A DNA stretch of 64,000 bases from Aminivibrio pyruvatiphilus. Lineage in GTDB: Bacteria > Synergistota > Synergistia > Synergistales > Aminobacteriaceae. Position 1 is the stretch's first letter, and each line of letters opens with the position of its first letter. The stretch spans positions 62,001 to 126,000 of the forward strand of contig NZ_SORI01000004.1 of the NCBI RefSeq assembly GCF_004366815.1. The letters run 5' to 3'. The position numbers were made by a program, and so were the translations under genes. Under the pieces are notes generated by a model, which saw only the letters and a list, made by a program, of their open reading frames with translations, made no database searches and was not told where the DNA came from. Below are positions 51,584-63,614 of this stretch, piece by piece.

Positions 51584-51612
51584 TTGGCAAGCCGAAAATG
51601 AACGTGTATAAT
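51584..51612 (+). promoter_or_regulatory. Promoter of tRNA-Ser(CGA)
   Basis: TTGGCA (51584-51589), a 17-base spacer and a perfect TATAAT (51607-51612) end 12 bases before the tRNA gene. Confidence 0.85.
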
Positions 51613-51624
51613 ACTTTTCCGTGC

Positions 51625-51714
51625 GGAGAAGTGCCCGAGTGGTCGAAGGGGATTGACTCGAAATCAATTGGGCGGCTTGCTGCCCCGTGGGTTCGAATCC
51701 CACCTTCTCCGCCA
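51625..51714 (+). tRNA. tRNA-Ser, anticodon CGA
   Basis: The 90-base gene has an acceptor stem GGAGAAG/CTTCTCC, the class II D-loop start of GCCCGAGTGG, anticodon CGA in a TTGA/TCAA stem, a long variable arm, GGTTCGAATCC in the T arm, a G discriminator and encoded CCA. It reads UCG. Confidence 0.97.
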
Positions 51715-51758
51715 GCAAAAATCCGTTTTCCAGGTATGGCAATCCTGAAAAGCTGTGA

Positions 51759-51764
51759 TATAAT
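51759..51764 (+). promoter_or_regulatory. Extended -10 of tRNA-Ser(GGA)
   Basis: TGATATAAT gives a TG-extended TATAAT box 17 bases ahead of the second tRNA gene; no clear -35 is seen. Confidence 0.6.
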
Positions 51765-51780
51765 GTTCGCCGTTGCATGC

Positions 51781-51868
51781 GGAGAAGTGGCCGAGTGGTC
51801 GAAGGCGGGCGCTTGGAGAGCGTCTGAACCGCGAGGTTCCGTGGGTTCGAATCCCTCCTTCTCCGCCA
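51781..51868 (+). tRNA. tRNA-Ser, anticodon GGA; likely integration site
   Basis: The 88-base gene has the acceptor stem GGAGAAG/CTTCTCC, a D loop starting GGCCGAGTGG, anticodon GGA, a long variable arm, GGTTCGAATCC and encoded CCA. It reads UCC and UCU. A tyrosine integrase starts about 50 bases after its CCA, so its 3' half is the probable attL of the island to the right. Confidence 0.97.
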
Positions 51869-51918
51869 TTAATCATGCCTTAATACTGGAAACAGAAGAG
51901 AAAAACGGTATACACGCT

Positions 51919-53994
51919 GTGCGCCAAAAGCGTACAGCCCCCAAGGTGTTACAAGCTGGTGTTCCATTCATCGAGCGGCGGGGGAATATTTATTATTTCC
52001 GCTGGGTCATACCTCAAACGGAGCGATTCCTATGGAACAAATCGGAAATCCGGCTCTCCCTCAAAACCCCCTATCTCAAACTCGCGCGAAAAAGAGGAGA
52101 ATACCTTCGCGCCGGACTGATTTTTCTGCCCATGGATCTCACTCCTGAAGAAAGAGCTCAAAGAGCCAAATGGCTTCATGAGGAAGCCCTGCTTCTTACC
52201 GACAAGTACAACCCTTCCTGGGACGACTCCGTCGAATCGGTTGCCCTGGCCCGTGACCACTCCCTTCATCTGACTCCCGACGAAGAGACGGAAAAGGAAG
52301 CGATCAACGAGGTGTACGGTGACACAAAGCAGCACAATAACTTTTGGGAGCTTTTCGAGGGAAAAAGAAGAATCATCCCCGTCACCTCCGAAAAATCACC
52401 TGAAACGGAATTCTCCCAGCGAGAGATCGACTTAATGGTGGAGCTTCTCATCGCTAATGACTGGGCTTTTCTTGAAAAAAAACTCCTGGCATCCGACCAC
52501 CGTACAGTCGAAGGGTACAATCTCGGAATATCCATGGAGGTTGAGGACCTGACCCTTTATCTCCTCGTCCGGAAGAAAAATTTCCGGAATATCCTCAAGG
52601 TCAGAGCTTTTACCGACCTTTTCAACGTCCGGAAACTTATCCCCCACACAAACAGGCATTTCCCGCCGATCGCCCAAAAATTCGTATCCGGCGCACTGGC
52701 GAATTGCGACCGTGCTCTGATGGAACTCAACGGGGTTCTTCCGCCGGAATCCGTACAAATTGCCTACAGATCCGAACATCCGGTAGTGCCGCCGGCAGTT
52801 TCGGTGAATAATACTACACCCCGTCCCACTGCAGGACCGGACTATGAAGACCCGGAAATCGCAACGCTCGTACAGGAAATTATTGCCGAGAAGACTACAT
52901 CAAAGGCCCGGAAGGAAGTTCGCTGGACCGAAAAGACCCGAGGAGAGTTTGAGTCGAAATTCAAATTCATTCTTCGCTATTTCGGCCAAGGCAGAAAAGT
53001 TTCCGAAATAACCAAGGAAAATCTCACCGAACTCATGGATATTTTCAATACTCGGCTGTCTGCCCGGCAGGTACAAAAGATGGAGGATCTCGATCCCCAC
53101 GAACTTCTCCGCGGGAAAATACCAGTGGGAAAGATTGCCAACGCCACGGTGGAAAAATGGACCACCGCGCTGAATATGATCCTGAAGAGGGGCCACGATT
53201 TCTATCCCGGTGCTTTGAAAGTCCCCTATTCCATAGTAAAGAAAGAAGTGGTGCTTCCGGACAAGGAACAGAAAATTGTCCGTCTCACCTACTCTCCTGA
53301 TGACCTGCAGAAACTTTTCGGCCAAAATTTCGTTGCAGATTCGCTCAAGGGGGGAAAAGCCATCGGGACGCCGGCCTACTTTCTCTTCGGGGCCTTGACG
53401 GGCGCCCGGGCGGAAGAACTCGGGCAGGTATGCCGGGACGATATCATAACTGTCGATGATATCCTTTGCCTGCAGATCGACGGAGATGCCGAATTGGGAA
53501 CAAGGGTGAAGAACAAAGCTTCCAAAAGAACGATTCCGGTACCGGAATCCCTGGTTCGGATCATGCAGTTCCTGATGGCAAATAAGAAAAAAAAGGACAA
53601 TATCTGGGGATTCGCGAAGAGCCAAGGAAAAAAAGCCTCCTTTTCACGGAACGCCGCCAGGTGGTGGAATACCTATGTCAGAAAAAAACTGGGCGAAGGT
53701 GCGGTCCAAACATTCCAGAACGGGCAAACGGGCGTCAAGGTGTTTCATTCCTTCCGCCACACCATCGCCAGCGTCGGAAAATCAATCGGGATAGAAAAGG
53801 TCTACACGTCTGAAATTCTCGGACACGATCCCAGTGATGGCATGAAAAACACCACCACTCACTATGAGTCCAAGTTTGCGCCTTCTGAACTGGCACCCAA
53901 ACTGAAAGCGATTAACGACGCGCTGGAAGTGGACTGGGAGGCAGTGGCCGACAAAATCCTCGCTGAAATGGTCAAGCGGCGCAACATCTCCTGA
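51919..53994 (+). CDS. int: Large tyrosine recombinase/integrase with DUF6538-like N-terminus
   Basis: A site-specific recombinase of about 691 residues that would insert and excise the island at tRNA-Ser. The N-terminus, VPFIERRGNIYYFRWVIPQT with SLKTPYLKLARKR, resembles the DUF6538 arm-binding domain of phage integrases. The catalytic domain has FGALTGARAEELGQV (Arg I), VKNKASKRTIPVP (Lys), FHSFRHTIASVG (His-x-x-Arg) and ILGHDPSDG with the Tyr in THYESKFAP. At nearly 700 residues it is larger than usual because of a long middle region. No ATG fits; the GTG at 51919 is the best start, while the frame itself runs back through the tRNA. Confidence 0.88.
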   Translation: MRQKRTAPKVLQAGVPFIERRGNIYYFRWVIPQTERFLWNKSEIRLSLKTPYLKLARKRGEYLRAGLIFLPMDLTPEERAQRAKWLHEEALLLTDKYNPSWDDSVESVALARDHSLHLTPDEETEKEAINEVYGDTKQHNNFWELFEGKRRIIPVTSEKSPETEFSQREIDLMVELLIANDWAFLEKKLLASDHRTVEGYNLGISMEVEDLTLYLLVRKKNFRNILKVRAFTDLFNVRKLIPHTNRHFPPIAQKFVSGALANCDRALMELNGVLPPESVQIAYRSEHPVVPPAVSVNNTTPRPTAGPDYEDPEIATLVQEIIAEKTTSKARKEVRWTEKTRGEFESKFKFILRYFGQGRKVSEITKENLTELMDIFNTRLSARQVQKMEDLDPHELLRGKIPVGKIANATVEKWTTALNMILKRGHDFYPGALKVPYSIVKKEVVLPDKEQKIVRLTYSPDDLQKLFGQNFVADSLKGGKAIGTPAYFLFGALTGARAEELGQVCRDDIITVDDILCLQIDGDAELGTRVKNKASKRTIPVPESLVRIMQFLMANKKKKDNIWGFAKSQGKKASFSRNAARWWNTYVRKKLGEGAVQTFQNGQTGVKVFHSFRHTIASVGKSIGIEKVYTSEILGHDPSDGMKNTTTHYESKFAPSELAPKLKAINDALEVDWEAVADKILAEMVKRRNIS

Positions 53995-56605: not shown

Positions 56606-57238
56606 GTGTCCAACATGGTGATTCTCAAGTCATGGATTGAGGGCACCCGTCCCCTCCTGTGGAACGCGTTTTCGGTCAGCATGCTGACGGGGGAGAAAAA
56701 GCGAAAAACCGGTTCTGCCGGCAATAATCCGGATGAGTGGAAGCAGACAGTTCTGGCCACTCCGGAACGCCGGCTTTTCGTAAAGGGCAGCTATCTTTTC
56801 AGCTGCCTGCGCGATGCAGCACGGTTTACGCGGGAAGGAAAAGGGACACTGCAGAGAAGCGTGGCGGCCACGCTGCAGATTTTGGACGAAGAAATTCTGG
56901 TGGACCGCTTTATTCCCGAGGAAATGTTTGTTACTCCCGAAGCGTTTCATAATGCCAAGGATAAGGATGTCTATATTGATGTTTGCGGAGTCCGGAATCC
57001 CACAACCCGTGGGAAAAACGTCCGCTACAGGGTTGCCTGTTCCAGCGGGTGGAAATGCAGTTTTTCCCTTGTCTTCGATAATACCCTGGTGTCCAAAATC
57101 GCCATGCGCTCCATCATCCACGACGCTGGAAATCTTGTAGGACTGGGAGACAGCCGGTCCATAGGATCAGGACGGTTTCGGGTTGAAAAAATCGAAGAAT
57201 CTGTGTACATTTCCGATGCCGAAAAGACGTCCGCCTAG
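56606..57238 (+). CDS. Protein of unknown function with RAMP/Cas7-like glycine-rich ending
   Basis: A 210-residue protein found upstream of an HNH nuclease. It opens VILKSWIEGTRPLLWNAFSV and ends NLVGLGDSRSIGSGRFRVEKIE. The pattern I-x-G-x-x-PLL near the start and G-x-G-x-R-x-x-G-x-GRF near the end recalls a family of mobile-element proteins I have seen without known function, and the glycine-rich loop resembles those in RAMP-type RNA-binding proteins. No enzyme motif is present. AAGGAG nine bases before the GTG at 56606 fixes the start. It is co-transcribed with, and overlaps by 23 bases, the HNH gene. Confidence 0.72.
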   Translation: MSNMVILKSWIEGTRPLLWNAFSVSMLTGEKKRKTGSAGNNPDEWKQTVLATPERRLFVKGSYLFSCLRDAARFTREGKGTLQRSVAATLQILDEEILVDRFIPEEMFVTPEAFHNAKDKDVYIDVCGVRNPTTRGKNVRYRVACSSGWKCSFSLVFDNTLVSKIAMRSIIHDAGNLVGLGDSRSIGSGRFRVEKIEESVYISDAEKTSA

Positions 57239-57503
57239 AACGATATGGCTGGAGCTACGGAAAATTGTATGGATTCGCTGCAACGGAAAATGCTCTCACT
57301 GCGGAAAGGAACTTTCCCTCTTTCGCTGCCATATCGATCATATTCACTCGGGGAAAAACGGAACAAACAAAATCCGCAACCTGAGAGTACTTTGCCCCAA
57401 ATGCCATACCCTGCGCCTTGACAAACGGCATCGGGGGTTAGTCGGAAAAGGTCTCCGGCTTGGAATCATCGACGAGAACTGGAGATCGAAAACCTGGGAA
57501 TAA
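57216..57503 (+). CDS. HNH endonuclease
   Basis: A 95-residue HNH-family nuclease. The two zinc cysteine pairs are CNGKCSHCGKELSL and LCPKCHTLRLD, and the catalytic core is CHIDHIHSGKNGTNKIRNL, with the metal-binding His-Asp-His in HIDHI. The longer frame starts upstream, but the ATG at 57216 (MPKRRPPRTIW) overlaps the previous gene by 23 bases and leaves a compact domain. HNH proteins of this size occur as phage terminase-associated or restriction nucleases; the target is unknown. Confidence 0.85.
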   Translation: MPKRRPPRTIWLELRKIVWIRCNGKCSHCGKELSLFRCHIDHIHSGKNGTNKIRNLRVLCPKCHTLRLDKRHRGLVGKGLRLGIIDENWRSKTWE

Positions 57504-57745: not shown

Positions 57746-58969
57746 GGAACCTCTAAAAGTCTCGGGCACATTGCCCTTCAACCCTGTAAAATAGCGCTAT
57801 GGGAACTGTTTCTTACTCCAGACCATACGGGGAGATGAGGCCCGATGAACCGCCAGAAAACGCTTGCGAACGCCTCCAGCTTAGAAAAATACAAGAAACC
57901 CACGAAGCGGGAAAAGTTCCTCGCCGAAATGGAACGGGTCGTTCCCTGGAAGGAACTCATCGAATCCTTCTACCCAAAGGCGGGAAAAGGCCGTCCTCCG
58001 GTAGGTCTGGAACGGATGCTCCGGATTCATTTCCTGCAGAGCTGCTTTCACTCAGTGAGGATCGCTGCCGAAGAAGCCCTCTACGACATGGAATCTCTGA
58101 GACGCTTCGTCGGGATCGACCTCGGAAACGAGCCTGTCCCCGACGAGACTACCATCTGCAAATTCCGCCATCTTCTCGAGACCCACGACCTCGGGGAACG
58201 GATCTTTCAGGAAGTCAACGCCCACTTCGAGGAGAAGGGACTGAAGCTCTCGGAGGGGACCATCATGAACGCCACCATCATCAACGCCCCTTCCTCAACG
58301 AAGAACCAGGACAAGAAGCGGGATCCCGACATGCACTCCACGAAGAAGGGAAACCAGTACTACTTCGGCATGAAGATCCATGTCGGAGTGGACAGGGAAA
58401 GCAGAACTGTCCACAGCCTCGTCACCACCCCCGCCAACGTCCACGGCTCAAAGATGGTGGACGACATCCTTCACGGTGAAGAAAACGCCGTCTTCGGTGA
58501 CTCGGCCTACATGGGCAAGACGGACGAAATCGCGAAAAAGGCGCCCCAAGCACTGGACCTGACCCAGACCAGAGGAACGAAAAACAGGAAACTCACCGAA
58601 GAAGAGAAAGAAAGGAATCGCCTGCTCTCGAAAACCAGAAGCCGGGGAGAGCACATCTTCCTCATCGCGAAAAGGATCTTCGGCTTTTCGAAGGTCAGGT
58701 ACAAGGGCCTGGCGAAGAACACCAACTTCGCCTTCGTGTTCTTTGCCCTGTCGAACCTGTAGTACATGGTTCGAAGGGGCCTGCTGGGGTCGACAGGGGC
58801 GTAGTGTATCCAAAAACAGGCAAAATACCATAAAAAACCAGAAATAGCGATAAAAGATGCAAAAGGCTGACCATATCGCTTGAATATCGGGCAAAAAGAA
58901 CACAGGAAACGGATTCGGCCGTCAAGGATCAACTGTTGGACGCTGGATCAGTTCTTGTTCAGAGGTTCC
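57746..58969 (+). mobile_element. Intact IS5-family insertion sequence with TTAA target duplication
   Basis: The element is 1224 bases long. Its left end starts GGAACCTCTAAAAG and its right end, read inward, starts GGAACCTCTGAACA, giving imperfect inverted repeats. Both ends are flanked by TTAA (57742-57745 and 58970-58973), the size and type of duplication made by the IS5 group. One transposase gene fills it. The clean duplication shows a complete, single insertion. Confidence 0.92.
57845..58762 (+). CDS. IS5-family transposase
   Basis: A 305-residue DDE transposase. It has RPPVGLERMLRIHFLQSCFH in the N-terminal domain, VPDETTICKFRHLLETHDL, NATIINAPSSTKN with the first catalytic Asp position region GNQYYFGMKIHVGVD, VFGDSAYMGK with the second Asp, and RSRGEHIFLIAKRIFGF with the catalytic Glu. 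The reading frame is intact from ATG to stop. Length is normal for the family. It lies inside an element with perfect target repeats and could be active. Confidence 0.95.
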   Translation: MNRQKTLANASSLEKYKKPTKREKFLAEMERVVPWKELIESFYPKAGKGRPPVGLERMLRIHFLQSCFHSVRIAAEEALYDMESLRRFVGIDLGNEPVPDETTICKFRHLLETHDLGERIFQEVNAHFEEKGLKLSEGTIMNATIINAPSSTKNQDKKRDPDMHSTKKGNQYYFGMKIHVGVDRESRTVHSLVTTPANVHGSKMVDDILHGEENAVFGDSAYMGKTDEIAKKAPQALDLTQTRGTKNRKLTEEEKERNRLLSKTRSRGEHIFLIAKRIFGFSKVRYKGLAKNTNFAFVFFALSNL

Positions 58970-58973
58970 TTAA

Positions 58974-59276
58974 GATTTTCATCCTGATGGCTTCCATGGC
59001 TCGTGATCTGGCGCAGGAATAATACTGGGAGGGAAACGAAGATTTCTCGGTATTGCATCTACTCATAATAGCATCGTTTTTTGGCAATCAACTTGTCTAT
59101 AAAAATCAAAAATAGTTACGATTAAAAAACTTGACTTTTCGTGTTGGTTTGAATAATAATTATTTAGGAAAAAATAATTTGGGCAGAAGATTCATTGAAT
59201 AAAACTAATACAAGTCATACGAAAAGCTATTTTTCATACCTTAATAGTATCAATAAACTAAAGGGGGTATTAGAAA
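58974..59276. other. AT-rich spacer after the IS element
   Basis: This roughly 300-base stretch changes abruptly from the GC-rich IS to AT-rich sequence. It holds the GGGGG ribosome site of the next gene. TTGACTTTTCG (near 59140) and many A/T runs could hold a promoter, but no convincing pair stands out. No gene is supported. Confidence 0.4.
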
Positions 59277-59792
59277 ATGAAAAAAATAGCAATTTGTCTT
59301 TTGTTAGTATTTATCATAGGTCTATCTGCTCCAAAGTTGGCTTTTTCTACTGATTCAAGCCCCGTCACAACCAATAATTCAGTACGAACTATTACTCTTG
59401 AAGATGTAATTAAGTTTATAAGAATAGCTAAGGAAACAGCTAAATTAGTCGAAGAATATGGCCCACCAATCTATAATAAAGGCAAAGCAATCACTGGAAG
59501 TGTTTATGAAAAGACAAAAGAAGTTGCTGGAAGTGCTTATGATAAGACAAAAGAAATTGCGGGATATACATATGACAAGACGAAAGAATTTGCTGGAGAT
59601 GCCTATGATATAACAAAAGAAATGGCAGGTTACACATATAATAAGACGAAAGAATTAGTTGGAGCTACTTATAATATAACAAAAGATGTTGCAGGGTATA
59701 CATATGATAAAACAGCGGAATATACAGAGAAGGCATATGATAAAACAGCGGACGCTTGTAAATCAGTTGTTGATTGGTTATTTGGTGATTAA
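59277..59792 (+). CDS. Secreted protein of nine 11-residue repeats (LEA-like), first paralogue
   Basis: A 171-residue protein I do not recognise by name. A signal peptide (residues 1 to about 24) is followed by a leader region and nine consecutive 11-residue repeats covering residues 65-163, with consensus A/T-Y-D-K-T-K-E-x-A-G-x, for example AYDKTKEIAGY at 87-97. The end, ACKSVVDWLFGD, is shared with the second paralogue. The pattern resembles group 3 LEA or apolipoprotein-like amphipathic helices, which protect membranes or proteins under water stress, but with tyrosine. Codon use is AT-rich, unlike the core. The second copy lies 465 bases downstream; a transferred gene pair is likely. Confidence 0.85.
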   Translation: MKKIAICLLLVFIIGLSAPKLAFSTDSSPVTTNNSVRTITLEDVIKFIRIAKETAKLVEEYGPPIYNKGKAITGSVYEKTKEVAGSAYDKTKEIAGYTYDKTKEFAGDAYDITKEMAGYTYNKTKELVGATYNITKDVAGYTYDKTAEYTEKAYDKTADACKSVVDWLFGD

Positions 59793-59915
59793 ATAAAAGC
59801 TGAATATTACGTTCCGTGGGCCGCTTTTCTCCATTTGCGGACCCATCTGTGTCGTTTTCCTTGAACCTTGAACCTCAAAAAAATCCAAATTTCACTATAC
59901 TTTAAATCACTCATC

Positions 59916-60093
59916 TCAAACGGTTTCTATTATGACACCGAGGGCTTTCGATTTGCCGAGTGAAGCGCAGATGGATTCAGGTTTTTCGCCATTGCGAAAA
60001 CGTTGAACGGCCAGAATTCTCTGCTGCTCATCCTTATTTTTAACGGGTTCCACCTCGGTAATATTAGGATACTCATGAAGATGAGGCGAAATC
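59916..60093 (-). pseudogene. Remnant of an IS481-type transposase (N-terminal HTH part)
   Basis: On the minus strand a frame reads ITEVEPVKNKDEQQRILAVQ and RFRNGEKPESICASLGKSKA, then runs into unrelated sequence and a stop. RFR-GEKPESICASLG-K is the helix-turn-helix start of IS481-like transposases. Just upstream (60100-60160) two copies of a GGACATCGT-type motif with GCCA-C/T resemble the element's terminus. It is a truncated leftover with no function. Confidence 0.6.
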
Positions 60094-60257
60094 AAAACTA
60101 TCGCAAGAAAAACTTTTGTAAACGATGTCCTGGCACAAAAATCAGTCTACGATGTCTTGGCATTCAACAGCTAACCAATTAGTAGAAAGAACTAACACCA
60201 ATTTACGTAGATAGATACACTTCAATAGCCTCAACAATTTAAAGGAGGTGTGTAAAA

Positions 60258-60605
60258 ATGAAAAAAGTGGCAATTTGTATTGTGTTTGTTTTTCTTTTGC
60301 TTATTCCAGTTTCCTCAGAATCATTTGATTTTGGTAACAAAAATGATACCGAAAGCACTGGTTCATTAACGAATACTTTAAAAGATGAGGCTTTAAAAGC
60401 ATTGATGCAAATTCTTGTAAATAAGGCATTTGAAAATGCTCCAGCAATCTACGAAAAAAGCAAGGAAATAGCAGTAGACGCATATGATAAAACGGTCGAA
60501 TATGGAGCAAAAGCATATGACGAGACTGCGGAATATGTTGAAAGTGCATATGATAAGACAGCGAATGCTTGTAAGTCTGTTGTTGATTGGCTATTTAGCG
60601 ATTAA
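60258..60605 (+). CDS. Secreted repeat protein (LEA-like), second paralogue
   Basis: A 115-residue paralogue of the protein at 59277. It has a signal peptide (residues 1 to about 20), a different short central region, and four 11-residue repeats at residues 64-107 (AYDKTVEYGAK, AYDETAEYVES, AYDKTANACKS). The last 19 residues, AYDKTANACKSVVDWLF and SD, match the first paralogue almost exactly, including the single cysteine. A strong AAAGGAGGT site precedes the ATG. The copy number of repeats differs (nine and four), showing expansion or loss. The function is unknown; export and amphipathic helices suggest a surface or protective role. Confidence 0.84.
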   Translation: MKKVAICIVFVFLLLIPVSSESFDFGNKNDTESTGSLTNTLKDEALKALMQILVNKAFENAPAIYEKSKEIAVDAYDKTVEYGAKAYDETAEYVESAYDKTANACKSVVDWLFSD

Positions 60606-60704: not shown

Positions 60705-60740
60705 TTTCTCTCCATCATACGATCAGAGGGAGATGTATGA

Positions 60741-60780
60741 GAAACCTCTGAACAAGAACTGGACCAGCGTCCAACAGTTG
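60741..60780 (-). repeat. Remnant of the right end of the same IS5-family element, inverted
   Basis: The stretch GAAACCTCTGAACAAG and onward to CCAACAGTTG nearly matches, in reverse orientation, the right terminal 40 bases of the IS at 57746-58969, which end at 58969. It has no transposase and no TTAA pair, so it is a truncated copy. Confidence 0.8.
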
Positions 60781-60840
60781 AACAATGAAGAAATTCCGGC
60801 CTAACACCCCCAGGTTCCTTTGGGAAACCATGAACTATTG

Positions 60841-60992: not shown

Positions 60993-62132
60993 TCAGTTTG
61001 AACCGTGTTTTCCACCTCGGCAAACTGAAATGATTGCTTCGGCAATTTTGTCCGCATCTTGTTCGGTATTTTCTTTTCCAAAAGAAATCCTGATTGTACC
61101 CTTTGCATATGAAGCCGGAATGGCAACGGCTTTTATCACATGAGAGATTTCGTTTTCAGAGGCGTTACAGGCTGAGCCGGTAGAAATGCATACTCCCTTC
61201 AAATCTAGGCGATGAAGCAACCGCTCACCATCTTCGTTCTTAATCGAGATACTGATATGTCCAGGCAGCCTTTTTGAGGAGCCATTCAGCAAATAATCAA
61301 TACCTGATGAAGCGAGCCGACGCAAAAAAATGGATGCGATTTTTTCCAGGTGGCTTGTATTCTCATCCATCATGGACACATTGTTTTTCAGTGCAACCGC
61401 CATTCCAACAATAGCGGCTATGTTTTCTGTCCCTGCGCGCAGTTTTCTCTCCTGTGCGCCTCCTGAAGAGTAGGATTGAATCTCTATTCCATCCCTGATA
61501 TAGAGGAAACCGACTCCCTTGGGACCATTGAACTTGTGAGCCGAAGCAGATAACAAATCGACTCCCAGATTGCAGACATTAACCGGAATATGACCAACAG
61601 CTTGTACAGCGTCGGTATGGAATAGAGCTCCGTAATCGTGAGCAATCCTCGCTAAAGGAGCAATATCTTGCAAAGAACCGATTTCATTGTTCGCTAATAT
61701 TAAAGAAACCAGAGCTGTTTTATCGGAGATCGACCTCTTGAGAATATCCATAGATACCGATCCGGTCCGGTCGACGGGGAGATAAACAATTTCCATCCCT
61801 ATTTTTTCTAAGAATTCGCACGAATGCAAGATAGCGTGATGCTCCACTGCTGATGTAATAATACGTTTTTTTTCATTTTTCCGTGCGAACGAAACACCTT
61901 TTAGCGCCCAGTTGTTGCTTTCCGTCCCACCCGAAGTAAAAAAAACCTCCTCGTCTTTTGCACCGATGCATTCAGCGATAGCTGCACGAGCATCACGAAG
62001 GGCCTGACGAGGGACTCGGGAAAAAGAGTATGCGCTCGATGCATTCCCATACTCATCATTAAGAAAAGGTACCATGGCCTGATATGCTTGATTATCGAGG
62101 CGGGTCGTCGCAGCATTATCAGCATAAATCAA
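60993..62132 (-). CDS. Cysteine desulfurase (IscS/NifS/DndA-like)
   Basis: A 379-residue PLP enzyme that takes sulfur from cysteine. Motifs are IYADNAATTRLD at the start, FFTSGGTESNNWALKG, SAVEHHAILHSC, LILANNEIGSLQDI, FHTDAVQAVGHIPV, the PLP lysine in LLSASAHKFNGPKG and the sulfur-carrying cysteine in CISTGSACNASENE. There are no Fe-S scaffold genes next to it; instead it follows brxL by 12 bases on the same strand. That setting suggests it supplies sulfur to a DNA-modification or defence step, as DndA does in phosphorothioation. It starts with TTG at 62132 with GAGGGTG upstream. Confidence 0.93.
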   Translation of the reverse strand: MIYADNAATTRLDNQAYQAMVPFLNDEYGNASSAYSFSRVPRQALRDARAAIAECIGAKDEEVFFTSGGTESNNWALKGVSFARKNEKKRIITSAVEHHAILHSCEFLEKIGMEIVYLPVDRTGSVSMDILKRSISDKTALVSLILANNEIGSLQDIAPLARIAHDYGALFHTDAVQAVGHIPVNVCNLGVDLLSASAHKFNGPKGVGFLYIRDGIEIQSYSSGGAQERKLRAGTENIAAIVGMAVALKNNVSMMDENTSHLEKIASIFLRRLASSGIDYLLNGSSKRLPGHISISIKNEDGERLLHRLDLKGVCISTGSACNASENEISHVIKAVAIPASYAKGTIRISFGKENTEQDADKIAEAIISVCRGGKHGSN

Positions 62133-62144
62133 AGCAGCACACCC

Positions 62145-63614
62145 TCATTCATCATACTGAATATCCGGTATGTCTCGTTTACCGGAAACATCATATTCTT
62201 TGGGATCCACGATGCAAAGCTGCGTTCGGATTATCTGCCGCATAGACTTCGCAGGTTCCAGGCAGTATTTCACGAACTCTTCTTTCGAAATATCGCTTTT
62301 CTTTCCCACGTGTGGGAAGAGCAATTTTAGAAAAGCCGTACAAAGCCTTTTAATGGCCGTTAAATCCCTCTTGTCTGCCTTTCTTGGTACCGAAATGCAC
62401 TGATCTACGACTGCCGAATACACAAGTTCATTTCGTAATGCGTGCAATACCTCGGCAAAATATTCCGTGTTTAGTGCCCAGCCATGAGCGATAATATCCT
62501 GATTAAGTCTTGGGATTTTCCAGCCGGGAATAAAACCGTGAAATCGATCAAGAGTTGCTGATTCTTGAAAAATGGGATTGATTTCTGCCACCATGTTTTT
62601 GTTTACGTCAAATCGTTCCGCATCGATATTTCCTAACACGATAACGCCTGCATTTGCTACCACTTGAGCATCAAAACCCTTTATTTCTCCGAACTCCATA
62701 TAATGTTTAAGGGCAGCCTGTATTTGACTGGGCTGATCGAACTTGATCGACTGGCTTTCATCAAACCCGACATAATCAAATCGAGACAAAAGGCCGCTCA
62801 TTTTTTTTTGATTGTCATATACCAGGGCCGCTCTGGATACCGTACCGCCTGAAACCAGCCAGCCGCGCTTGCTGATCTTTTCGTATACGTAACTTTTCCC
62901 AGTACCCTTAGGAGCTAACTCGATCAAATTAATACGGTTTTCTACAAAAGGAAGCAAACGCTGTAGGAAAAAAAGTTTCTTGGACTCGCTCGGGGCTCCT
63001 GTAACATCGTCAACATAACCTTTTGGATTGTAATCCACTGCGGATAAAAGAACATCAATCCATTCCTGAATTGAAAACTCTTTGCGAGCTTTCCGATAAT
63101 AATCCAAATCAACAGTATACGGGCAAAAGGGCTTATAATTGACAAGTCGTATGCATCCCTTGGGTGGCTTCTTCGAATAATCCAAGTTCCACATGAAATC
63201 GAGCACACCCCAGTTTTCATTTTCACGCAACAAAACATCTTGCCACTCCTTGACGACGTCGCTCTCAACGACGCCGCTCGCACCAGTTCGAGACCCGCCG
63301 AAATCAGGCAGTTCAAAAACAGTCTTTCCGTCCTTTATATCCACCATCACCCGTATGCGCGCTAGAAAACGAACCTTTTCTCCATTTACCATTGCATATT
63401 TGAATTGTTCGAAATCCTCACGACCAGGGATATATTTTTTTATATACCGGAGAACGCTATCGAAATCGATAACTCCGGATTCATCAGAAAACTTCATAAC
63501 AAGCCAGTCTCTCATATACGAAGGAAGGCTTAAATTCGAAAAGAATTCCGTTTTTTTGGGATCTTTTAGCACGATCATTTCAGAGAAGATACTTTTTATC
63601 TTATCTTCCAGCAA
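62145..63614 (-). CDS. brxL: BrxL-like AAA+ protein of a BREX defence system (short form)
   Basis: A 489-residue protein with the BrxL core: RFLARIRVMVDIKDGKTVFE, SIQEWIDVLLSAVDYNP, RINLIELAPKGTGKSYVYEK (Walker A), WLVSGGTVSRAALVYDNQ and FDYVGFDESQSIKF (Walker B), with ANAGVIVLGNIDAERF as sensor. BrxL assembles as hexameric rings on DNA and is needed for BREX phage defence. Standard BrxL proteins carry a C-terminal Lon-like protease domain and are near 680 residues; here the gene ends about 200 residues short, after the AAA+ part. The TTG start has GAGGTG upstream. Codon use is more AT-rich than the core. Confidence 0.85.
   Translation of the reverse strand: MLEDKIKSIFSEMIVLKDPKKTEFFSNLSLPSYMRDWLVMKFSDESGVIDFDSVLRYIKKYIPGREDFEQFKYAMVNGEKVRFLARIRVMVDIKDGKTVFELPDFGGSRTGASGVVESDVVKEWQDVLLRENENWGVLDFMWNLDYSKKPPKGCIRLVNYKPFCPYTVDLDYYRKARKEFSIQEWIDVLLSAVDYNPKGYVDDVTGAPSESKKLFFLQRLLPFVENRINLIELAPKGTGKSYVYEKISKRGWLVSGGTVSRAALVYDNQKKMSGLLSRFDYVGFDESQSIKFDQPSQIQAALKHYMEFGEIKGFDAQVVANAGVIVLGNIDAERFDVNKNMVAEINPIFQESATLDRFHGFIPGWKIPRLNQDIIAHGWALNTEYFAEVLHALRNELVYSAVVDQCISVPRKADKRDLTAIKRLCTAFLKLLFPHVGKKSDISKEEFVKYCLEPAKSMRQIIRTQLCIVDPKEYDVSGKRDIPDIQYDE

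Follow-up and report, generated by a model that had tools for sequence, protein, structure and literature searches.

The window (the whole 64,000-nt stretch of DNA analysed, C4:62001–126000 of a 3.35-Mb draft genome) contains two short open reading frames for putative exported proteins, hereafter P0001 and P0002. P0001 (59277..59792, + strand) is a 171-residue protein with nine 11-residue Tyr repeats (residues 65–163) and the C-terminal tail ACKSVVDWLFGD, and P0002 (60258..60605, + strand) is its 115-residue paralogue with four repeats (residues 64–107) and the tail ACKSVVDWLFSD; both were delimited by ORF and repeat analysis. Each ATG follows a Shine–Dalgarno sequence, AGGGGG for P0001 (region AAAGGGGGTATTAGAA, 59261..59276, +) and AAAGGAGG for P0002 (region AAAGGAGGTGTGTAAAA, 60241..60257, +), and the two upstream regions are 76% identical over 75 nt, with 40 nt of upstream DNA in common. 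By inspection, both proteins begin with a Sec-type signal-peptide-like segment (MKKIAICLLLVFIIGLSAPKLAFS in P0001 and MKKVAICIVFVFLLLIPVSSES in P0002); that of P0001 (59277..59348, +) is predicted to consist of an n-region with KK, the hydrophobic core IAICLLLVFIIGL and an AFS/TD cleavage site. A lipobox search of the first 40 residues of P0001 and P0002 gave no match. The tail ACKSVVDWLFxD, which carries a cysteine residue, is common to both proteins, and a hairpin with a T run, resembling a terminator, lies 3′ of P0002 (60685..60704, +; a consensus match only). The original prediction of two paralogous secreted proteins, with signal peptides and a nearly identical cysteine-containing C-terminus ACKSVVDWLF, therefore stands for both open reading frames.

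The nine repeats of P0001 follow one another without gaps from residue 65, as do the four of P0002 from residue 64, and Tyr occupies repeat position 2 in every unit (13/13). Lag-11 identity was 49 in P0001, compared with 10.8 ± 3.1 in 20,000 shuffles (largest 23), and 21 in P0002, compared with 6.0 ± 2.3 (largest 16), confirming the nine and four 11-residue repeats with a fixed Tyr that had been described. In place of the consensus given earlier, A-Y-D-K-T-x-E-x-A-x-x, P0001 is better described by [AT]-Y-D-K-T-K-E-[VIFML]-A-G-x. At the DNA level, the P0001 array (59469..59765, +) is made of nine 33-bp units, and the unit identity matrix revealed a 66-bp higher-order similarity (units 3/5, 4/6 and 5/7), suggesting that the array probably grew by two-unit duplications. 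Over the 47 codons common to P0001 and P0002, mismatches fell mostly at codon position 3 (12/10/20), and dN was 0.26 against a dS of 1.21 (dN/dS ~0.2), which indicates that selection acted on the protein and not on the DNA repeat alone. The shared block is thus under purifying selection and, as judged from sequence, the observation on the gene pair is real, in that both genes appear to encode selected, putatively exported proteins.

Hydrophobic moments, calculated for both arrays with an ordinary hydrophobicity scale, peaked at 97.9 (P0001) and 98.0 (P0002) degrees per residue, corresponding to an 11/3 helix, in support of the amphipathic periodicity of LEA and apolipoprotein type claimed originally. 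At 98.2 degrees the moments were 0.33 and 0.38 respectively, with 0/5000 shuffles as high. On the 11/3 wheel the repeat positions run in the order 8 [VILMF], 1 [AT], 5 [T], 9 [A], 2 [Y], 6 [K], 10 [G], 3 [D], 7 [E], 11 and 4 [K], giving a nonpolar face of [VILMF]-A-T-A-Y. In P0001, measured from the nonpolar centre, Lys residues lay on average at 102 degrees and Asp/Glu residues at 158 degrees (p < 1e-4). Its repeats are thus predicted to form a class-A amphipathic helix, with Lys along both edges and Asp/Glu opposite the nonpolar face, the charge layout of apolipoprotein and perilipin helices. The face and the acidic residues of P0002 are placed as in P0001, with Lys enriched on one edge only (p 0.011); just one of its four repeats has Lys at position 6 and the repeats have a net charge of −4, so that the class-A character of P0002 is weaker. 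AlphaFold2 models, each with one or two sequences behind it, showed a single continuous helix at residues 41–169 of P0001 (pLDDT 60) and at residues 34–112 of P0002 (pLDDT about 76–92), which lends weak support, a single long helix being a frequent default of structure prediction. The helical wheel and structure prediction proposed as checks in the original prediction thus gave an amphipathic 11/3 wheel and one continuous helix for each protein.

Two tRNA-Ser genes are located at 51625–51714 and 51781–51868. The 3′ end of the second, tRNA-Ser(GGA) (attL, 22 nt, 51849..51870, +), is found again as an exact copy (attR) 30.6 kb downstream and outside the window, at G000:C4:144435–144456. An ORF at 51598..53994 (+) with DUF6538 and, by inspection, the residues HSFRHTIAS..LGH..Y is the likely tyrosine integrase of the island, its true start being downstream of the tRNA-Ser gene. 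The duplicated tRNA end and the integrase-like ORF together indicate a genomic island reaching from window position 51849 to C4:144456 (30.6 kb). In the congener G004, 55 kb separate this tRNA end from the same flank (C25:61090–116551), so that this site also carries extra DNA, which suggests that the tRNA-Ser site is an integration hotspot. An empty site was not found in the congeners; in G004 the site holds other DNA, and the G001 flanks are on different contigs.

The repeat-gene region is the AT-richest part of the window (34–39% GC), and GC3 is 0.20–0.24 in the repeat genes compared with 0.70 in core genes. An IS5-family transposase gene lies upstream of the pair (57845–58762), and P0001 and P0002 are separated by an IS fragment holding the N-terminal part of a transposase gene (59943..60174, −), of which 93–95% identical copies occur elsewhere in the genome and in two congeners. 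The pair is also flanked by a 49-nt inverted repeat (88%; left arm 58922..58970, +; right arm 60740..60788, −) that encloses only the two repeat genes and the IS fragment. The 36-nt core of this inverted repeat was not found again in the 83 genomes of the family, and visual inspection revealed no target duplication; the arms could be the ends of a small mobile unit or cassette. The description of an AT-rich island near a defence system, with IS remnants around it, was therefore accurate. The defence system, carried by this island too, is a type 4 BREX locus (window 60993–63614 and L003:5852–14814, on the opposite strand to the repeat genes), comprising BrxP, BrxC/PglY, PglZ, BrxL and, beside BrxL, a DndA-like cysteine desulfurase, which one study proposes as a sixth core component of such systems (PMC12839542). 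BrxP is absent from the four congeners examined. Other frames were observed in this part of the genome: a 210-aa ORF at window 56606–57238 with a weak Csm4-like match (E 4e-4), overlapped by a small HNH endonuclease frame (window 57183–57503) related to IscB/ZorE-type HNH domains, and a 649-aa open frame (L003:18008–19954) in which residues ~290–383 resemble RNA polymerase beta′ (E 1e-26) at its C-terminal end only; a stretch of 62% GC comes after this frame within the presumed island.

Protein, profile and tail searches of 188 genomes of the phylum found no relative with the cysteine tail ACKSVVDWLF, and the profile search for the repeat plus C-terminal motif that had been proposed thus brought no homologue with this tail. 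Exact peptide patterns (from P0001, and YDxTxxxCxxV-DW) found no tail relatives in 84,980 species genomes, such scans reaching close relatives only, and there were no true relatives in viral contigs. Several matches were discarded: three to the YDxTxxxCxxV-DW pattern and one in G152 (L024) as chance, one in G031 (L004) as an Ala-rich stretch of a substrate-binding protein, one on a Caedibacter plasmid as a different short repeat, and the PHROGs tape-measure matches and a PDB de novo CAP REPEAT match as similarities of helix and repeat composition, not relatives. With no Pfam or NCBIfam match at cut-off, and none of the PHROGs matches a relative, the claim that the proteins belong to no named family was borne out.

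Similarly designed proteins in which Trp replaces Tyr were first reached from a phage-collection scaffold, MT836861. This scaffold is unannotated and has a glycosyltransferase-like frame, which makes its phage label doubtful, and a phage origin was dropped. The Trp-type members are those of MT836861, Klebsiella (WXJ00732 and VDZ69316), Pantoea (WP_103796540), a Salmonella plasmid (QVS16838) and two viral-collection contigs. Each of them, hypothetical or unannotated, carries a signal peptide, and the repeats follow [AGT]-W-[DN]-K-T-K-E-x-x-x-x, for example GWDKTKEGTEK. In the three tested, the moment peaked at 98.3–98.7 degrees, positions 5 and 6 were invariably Thr and Lys, and the acidic residues lay opposite the nonpolar face. 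They differ from P0001 and P0002 in having Trp for Tyr, a Gly/Thr-rich nonpolar face, two to five repeats and a different N-terminal part, and the cysteine tail was absent from every one found; homology between the two types is not demonstrable from 11-mers. The loci are L072:1764–2153, L073:1348–1773, L077:1501–1824, L076:1486–1839, L074:13190–13552, L075:8808–9197 and L015:2425–2805; neighbours include rcnB in Klebsiella and DUF883 and holin-family genes on the Salmonella IncFIB plasmid, the rest being in Pantoea and on uncultured contigs. The existence of these exported proteins makes a fixed aromatic residue a recurring trait of an unnamed kind. Thus the fixed Tyr, considered unusual in the original prediction, is indeed present in all units, but a fixed aromatic residue is not unique to them, as Trp takes the same place in other exported bacterial proteins.

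By analogy, the helix geometry suggests that P0001 and P0002 are exported proteins which fold on an amphipathic surface of the envelope, lipid or other, and coat or protect it, a reading to which we give a probability of about 0.5. The repeat, its register, the charge layout of P0001, the selection and the lack of a lipobox were read from sequence, and the step to coating is one of geometry and analogy. Following Sec export, most of the mature part would form a single long amphipathic helix of 11/3 type (3.67 residues per turn). The exported chain would probably be largely unfolded in water and fold upon meeting an amphipathic surface, most likely envelope phospholipid, where it would lie flat as a single long helix. 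Thr/Ala and the large aliphatic residue would be buried in the lipid, with Tyr placed at its interface, and the Lys residues along the two edges would bind anionic headgroups. The C-terminal Cys and VVDWLF may provide an additional hydrophobic anchor, and the number of repeats (nine or four) would set the affinity. The envelope would thereby be coated and stabilised, as by exchangeable apolipoproteins, perilipin 4 and membrane-binding LEA proteins. The repeat genes themselves would have come in as cargo of the tRNA-Ser genomic island. Against a coating role stands BilRI of Aggregatibacter, an exported LEA-like protein of 11-mers which is disordered in solution, with repeats unresponsive to LPS (PMC8096337).

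The same repeats could instead pack protein against protein as a right-handed hendecad coiled coil, forming a periplasmic or cell-surface fibre or bundle, with the Cys possibly joining chains. Gapless 11-mers and a single long predicted helix would suit such an assembly, and its core positions a-d-e-h could be filled by T5, [VIFML]8, A9 and A/T1. However, this core would be rich in Thr/Ala, seven of the nine P0001 repeats have Gly at position 10, and the Lys residues of P0001 flank the nonpolar face on both sides, where their mutual repulsion would disfavour a simple homo-oligomeric coiled coil. Furthermore, the host genome yielded neither DsbB nor VKOR, which makes disulfide-linked dimers less likely, other oxidation routes being possible, and weakens the earlier suggestion of dimerisation through the cysteine. 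We consider the coiled coil rather unlikely. Another alternative is a mostly disordered, group-3-LEA-like stress protectant of the envelope, which would shield proteins and membranes in drying, salt or cold with no specific lipid binding. P0001 and P0002 have the tandem 11-mers able to form an amphipathic helix that characterize LEA proteins, as well as low hydrophobicity; LEA 11-mers protect E. coli (PMC8670023), and BilRI provides a precedent for export of an LEA-like protein in bacteria (PMC8096337). The profile matches that point the same way are weak, 8.3 bits (E 2.8) for the group 3 LEA family LEA_4 of Pfam against a gathering cut-off of 51.1 bits, and 21.5 bits (E 3e-4) for the Ag473 lipoprotein model NF047840, the best weak NCBIfam match, against a cut-off of 100 bits. 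In addition, the nonpolar face holds large aliphatic residues and Tyr, which are unusual for LEA proteins, and we regard this protectant role as rather unlikely.

The two remaining alternatives concern the genetic setting. The pair adjoins a type 4 BREX locus that looks complete and shares its tRNA-Ser island, and the products of the pair might be BREX accessories or an independent anti-phage envelope protein. However, the repeat genes point away from the BREX operon on the opposite strand, their GC3 differs from the 0.41–0.49 of the BREX genes, and the IS fragment and 49-nt inverted repeats set them off from it. PADLOC has no family for either protein. Seven further BrxP loci of the phylum had no 11-mer ORF in the surrounding stretches examined, which leaves a defence role unsupported, and a survey of BREX associations gave no match to secreted, periplasmic, signal-peptide-bearing or amphipathic partners (PMC12839542). 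The shared island is thus the sole tie to defence, the linkage to BREX or other defence genes raised originally is not supported, and such a role seems highly improbable. The IS fragment between the genes, the inverted repeats around them and the lack of a same-tail relative in the phylum genomes would also fit a decaying passenger of a mobile element that serves no function today. Against this, both frames are intact, with a start codon, Shine–Dalgarno site and signal peptide, and the shared block has a low dN/dS, although such a ratio is an average over the past and no proof that the genes are now expressed; we hold decay to be improbable.

Beyond this locus, the coating reading can be extended to a tentative and, in our view, rather doubtful generalization, namely that aromatic-D-K-T-K-E 11-mers, with Tyr here and Trp in Enterobacterales and uncultured contigs, may form an unrecognised, widely scattered and often mobile class of envelope-coating 11/3 helices in which the alpha-synuclein design was reached independently, P0001 and P0002 being the Tyr form, strongly hydrophobic and with Cys as an anchor. 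If true, exported bacterial 11-mers with KTKE plus a hydrophobic residue would offer a simple, genetically tractable and independently made case of the membrane-coating design of synuclein, and several nameless hypothetical exported proteins of Enterobacterales sharing the register would be grouped. If lipid binding fails, P0001 and P0002 would be one further pair of LEA-like repeat proteins. The interest of the pair rests on the synuclein-like register and the unrecognised Trp-type cousins.

The closest known design is that of alpha-synuclein, which has up to nine 11-mers with the core KTKEGV, Thr in the nonpolar face and Lys residues forming two wings, and which on vesicles is one long 11/3 helix (PMC6167557). 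P0001 resembles it in its 11-mers, in KTKE at positions 4–7 in the same wheel register, in Thr within the face and in Lys at both edges; up to nine repeats are common to alpha-synuclein and the pair, whereas P0002 has the KTKE, Thr and Lys layout only in part. Alpha-synuclein aligned to P0001 in register over three repeats without gaps (phmmer E 1.4; synuclein range E 1.4–4.1), and the synuclein family was not matched by P0001 or P0002 in Pfam at E ≤ 10. The likeness is thus one of design, homology or descent not being demonstrated at E 1.4, and, according to a review, the KTKEGV repeat is unseen outside vertebrate synucleins (PMC6167557). Unlike alpha-synuclein, P0001 and P0002 are bacterial and putatively exported, with Tyr at position 2 and a Cys/VVDWLF tail, and the residue after KTKE in P0001 is hydrophobic rather than Gly. 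Engineered synuclein in which a hydrophobic residue replaces this Gly (KTKEIV) has stronger membrane binding (PMC6167557), and the four perfect KTKE repeats of P0001 are followed by V/I/F/L; if anything, P0001 should therefore bind well.

Perilipin 4 has long, weakly hydrophobic, Thr-rich 11-mers that fold on lipid with binding that rises with length (PMC5889406). Like perilipin 4 and the exchangeable apolipoproteins, P0001 and P0002 have a long 11/3 amphipathic helix of weak hydrophobicity with a Thr-rich nonpolar face, but they are far shorter than perilipin 4, bacterial and putatively exported; the Pfam perilipin model gave 11.8 bits for P0002 against a cut-off of 33, and apolipoprotein was absent from the Pfam matches. 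Among bacterial proteins, BilRI and Ag473 of Neisseria, the latter probably also an exported 11-mer protein, are alike in export and in comparable repeat length, 11-mers being stated for BilRI. Both are outer-membrane proteins or lipoproteins, whereas P0001 and P0002 have no lipobox Cys as in Ag473, and the available descriptions of BilRI and Ag473 report no fixed aromatic residue like the position-2 Tyr. Thus P0001 and P0002 are a Tyr/Cys variant within the known exported LEA/apolipoprotein-like 11-mer proteins.
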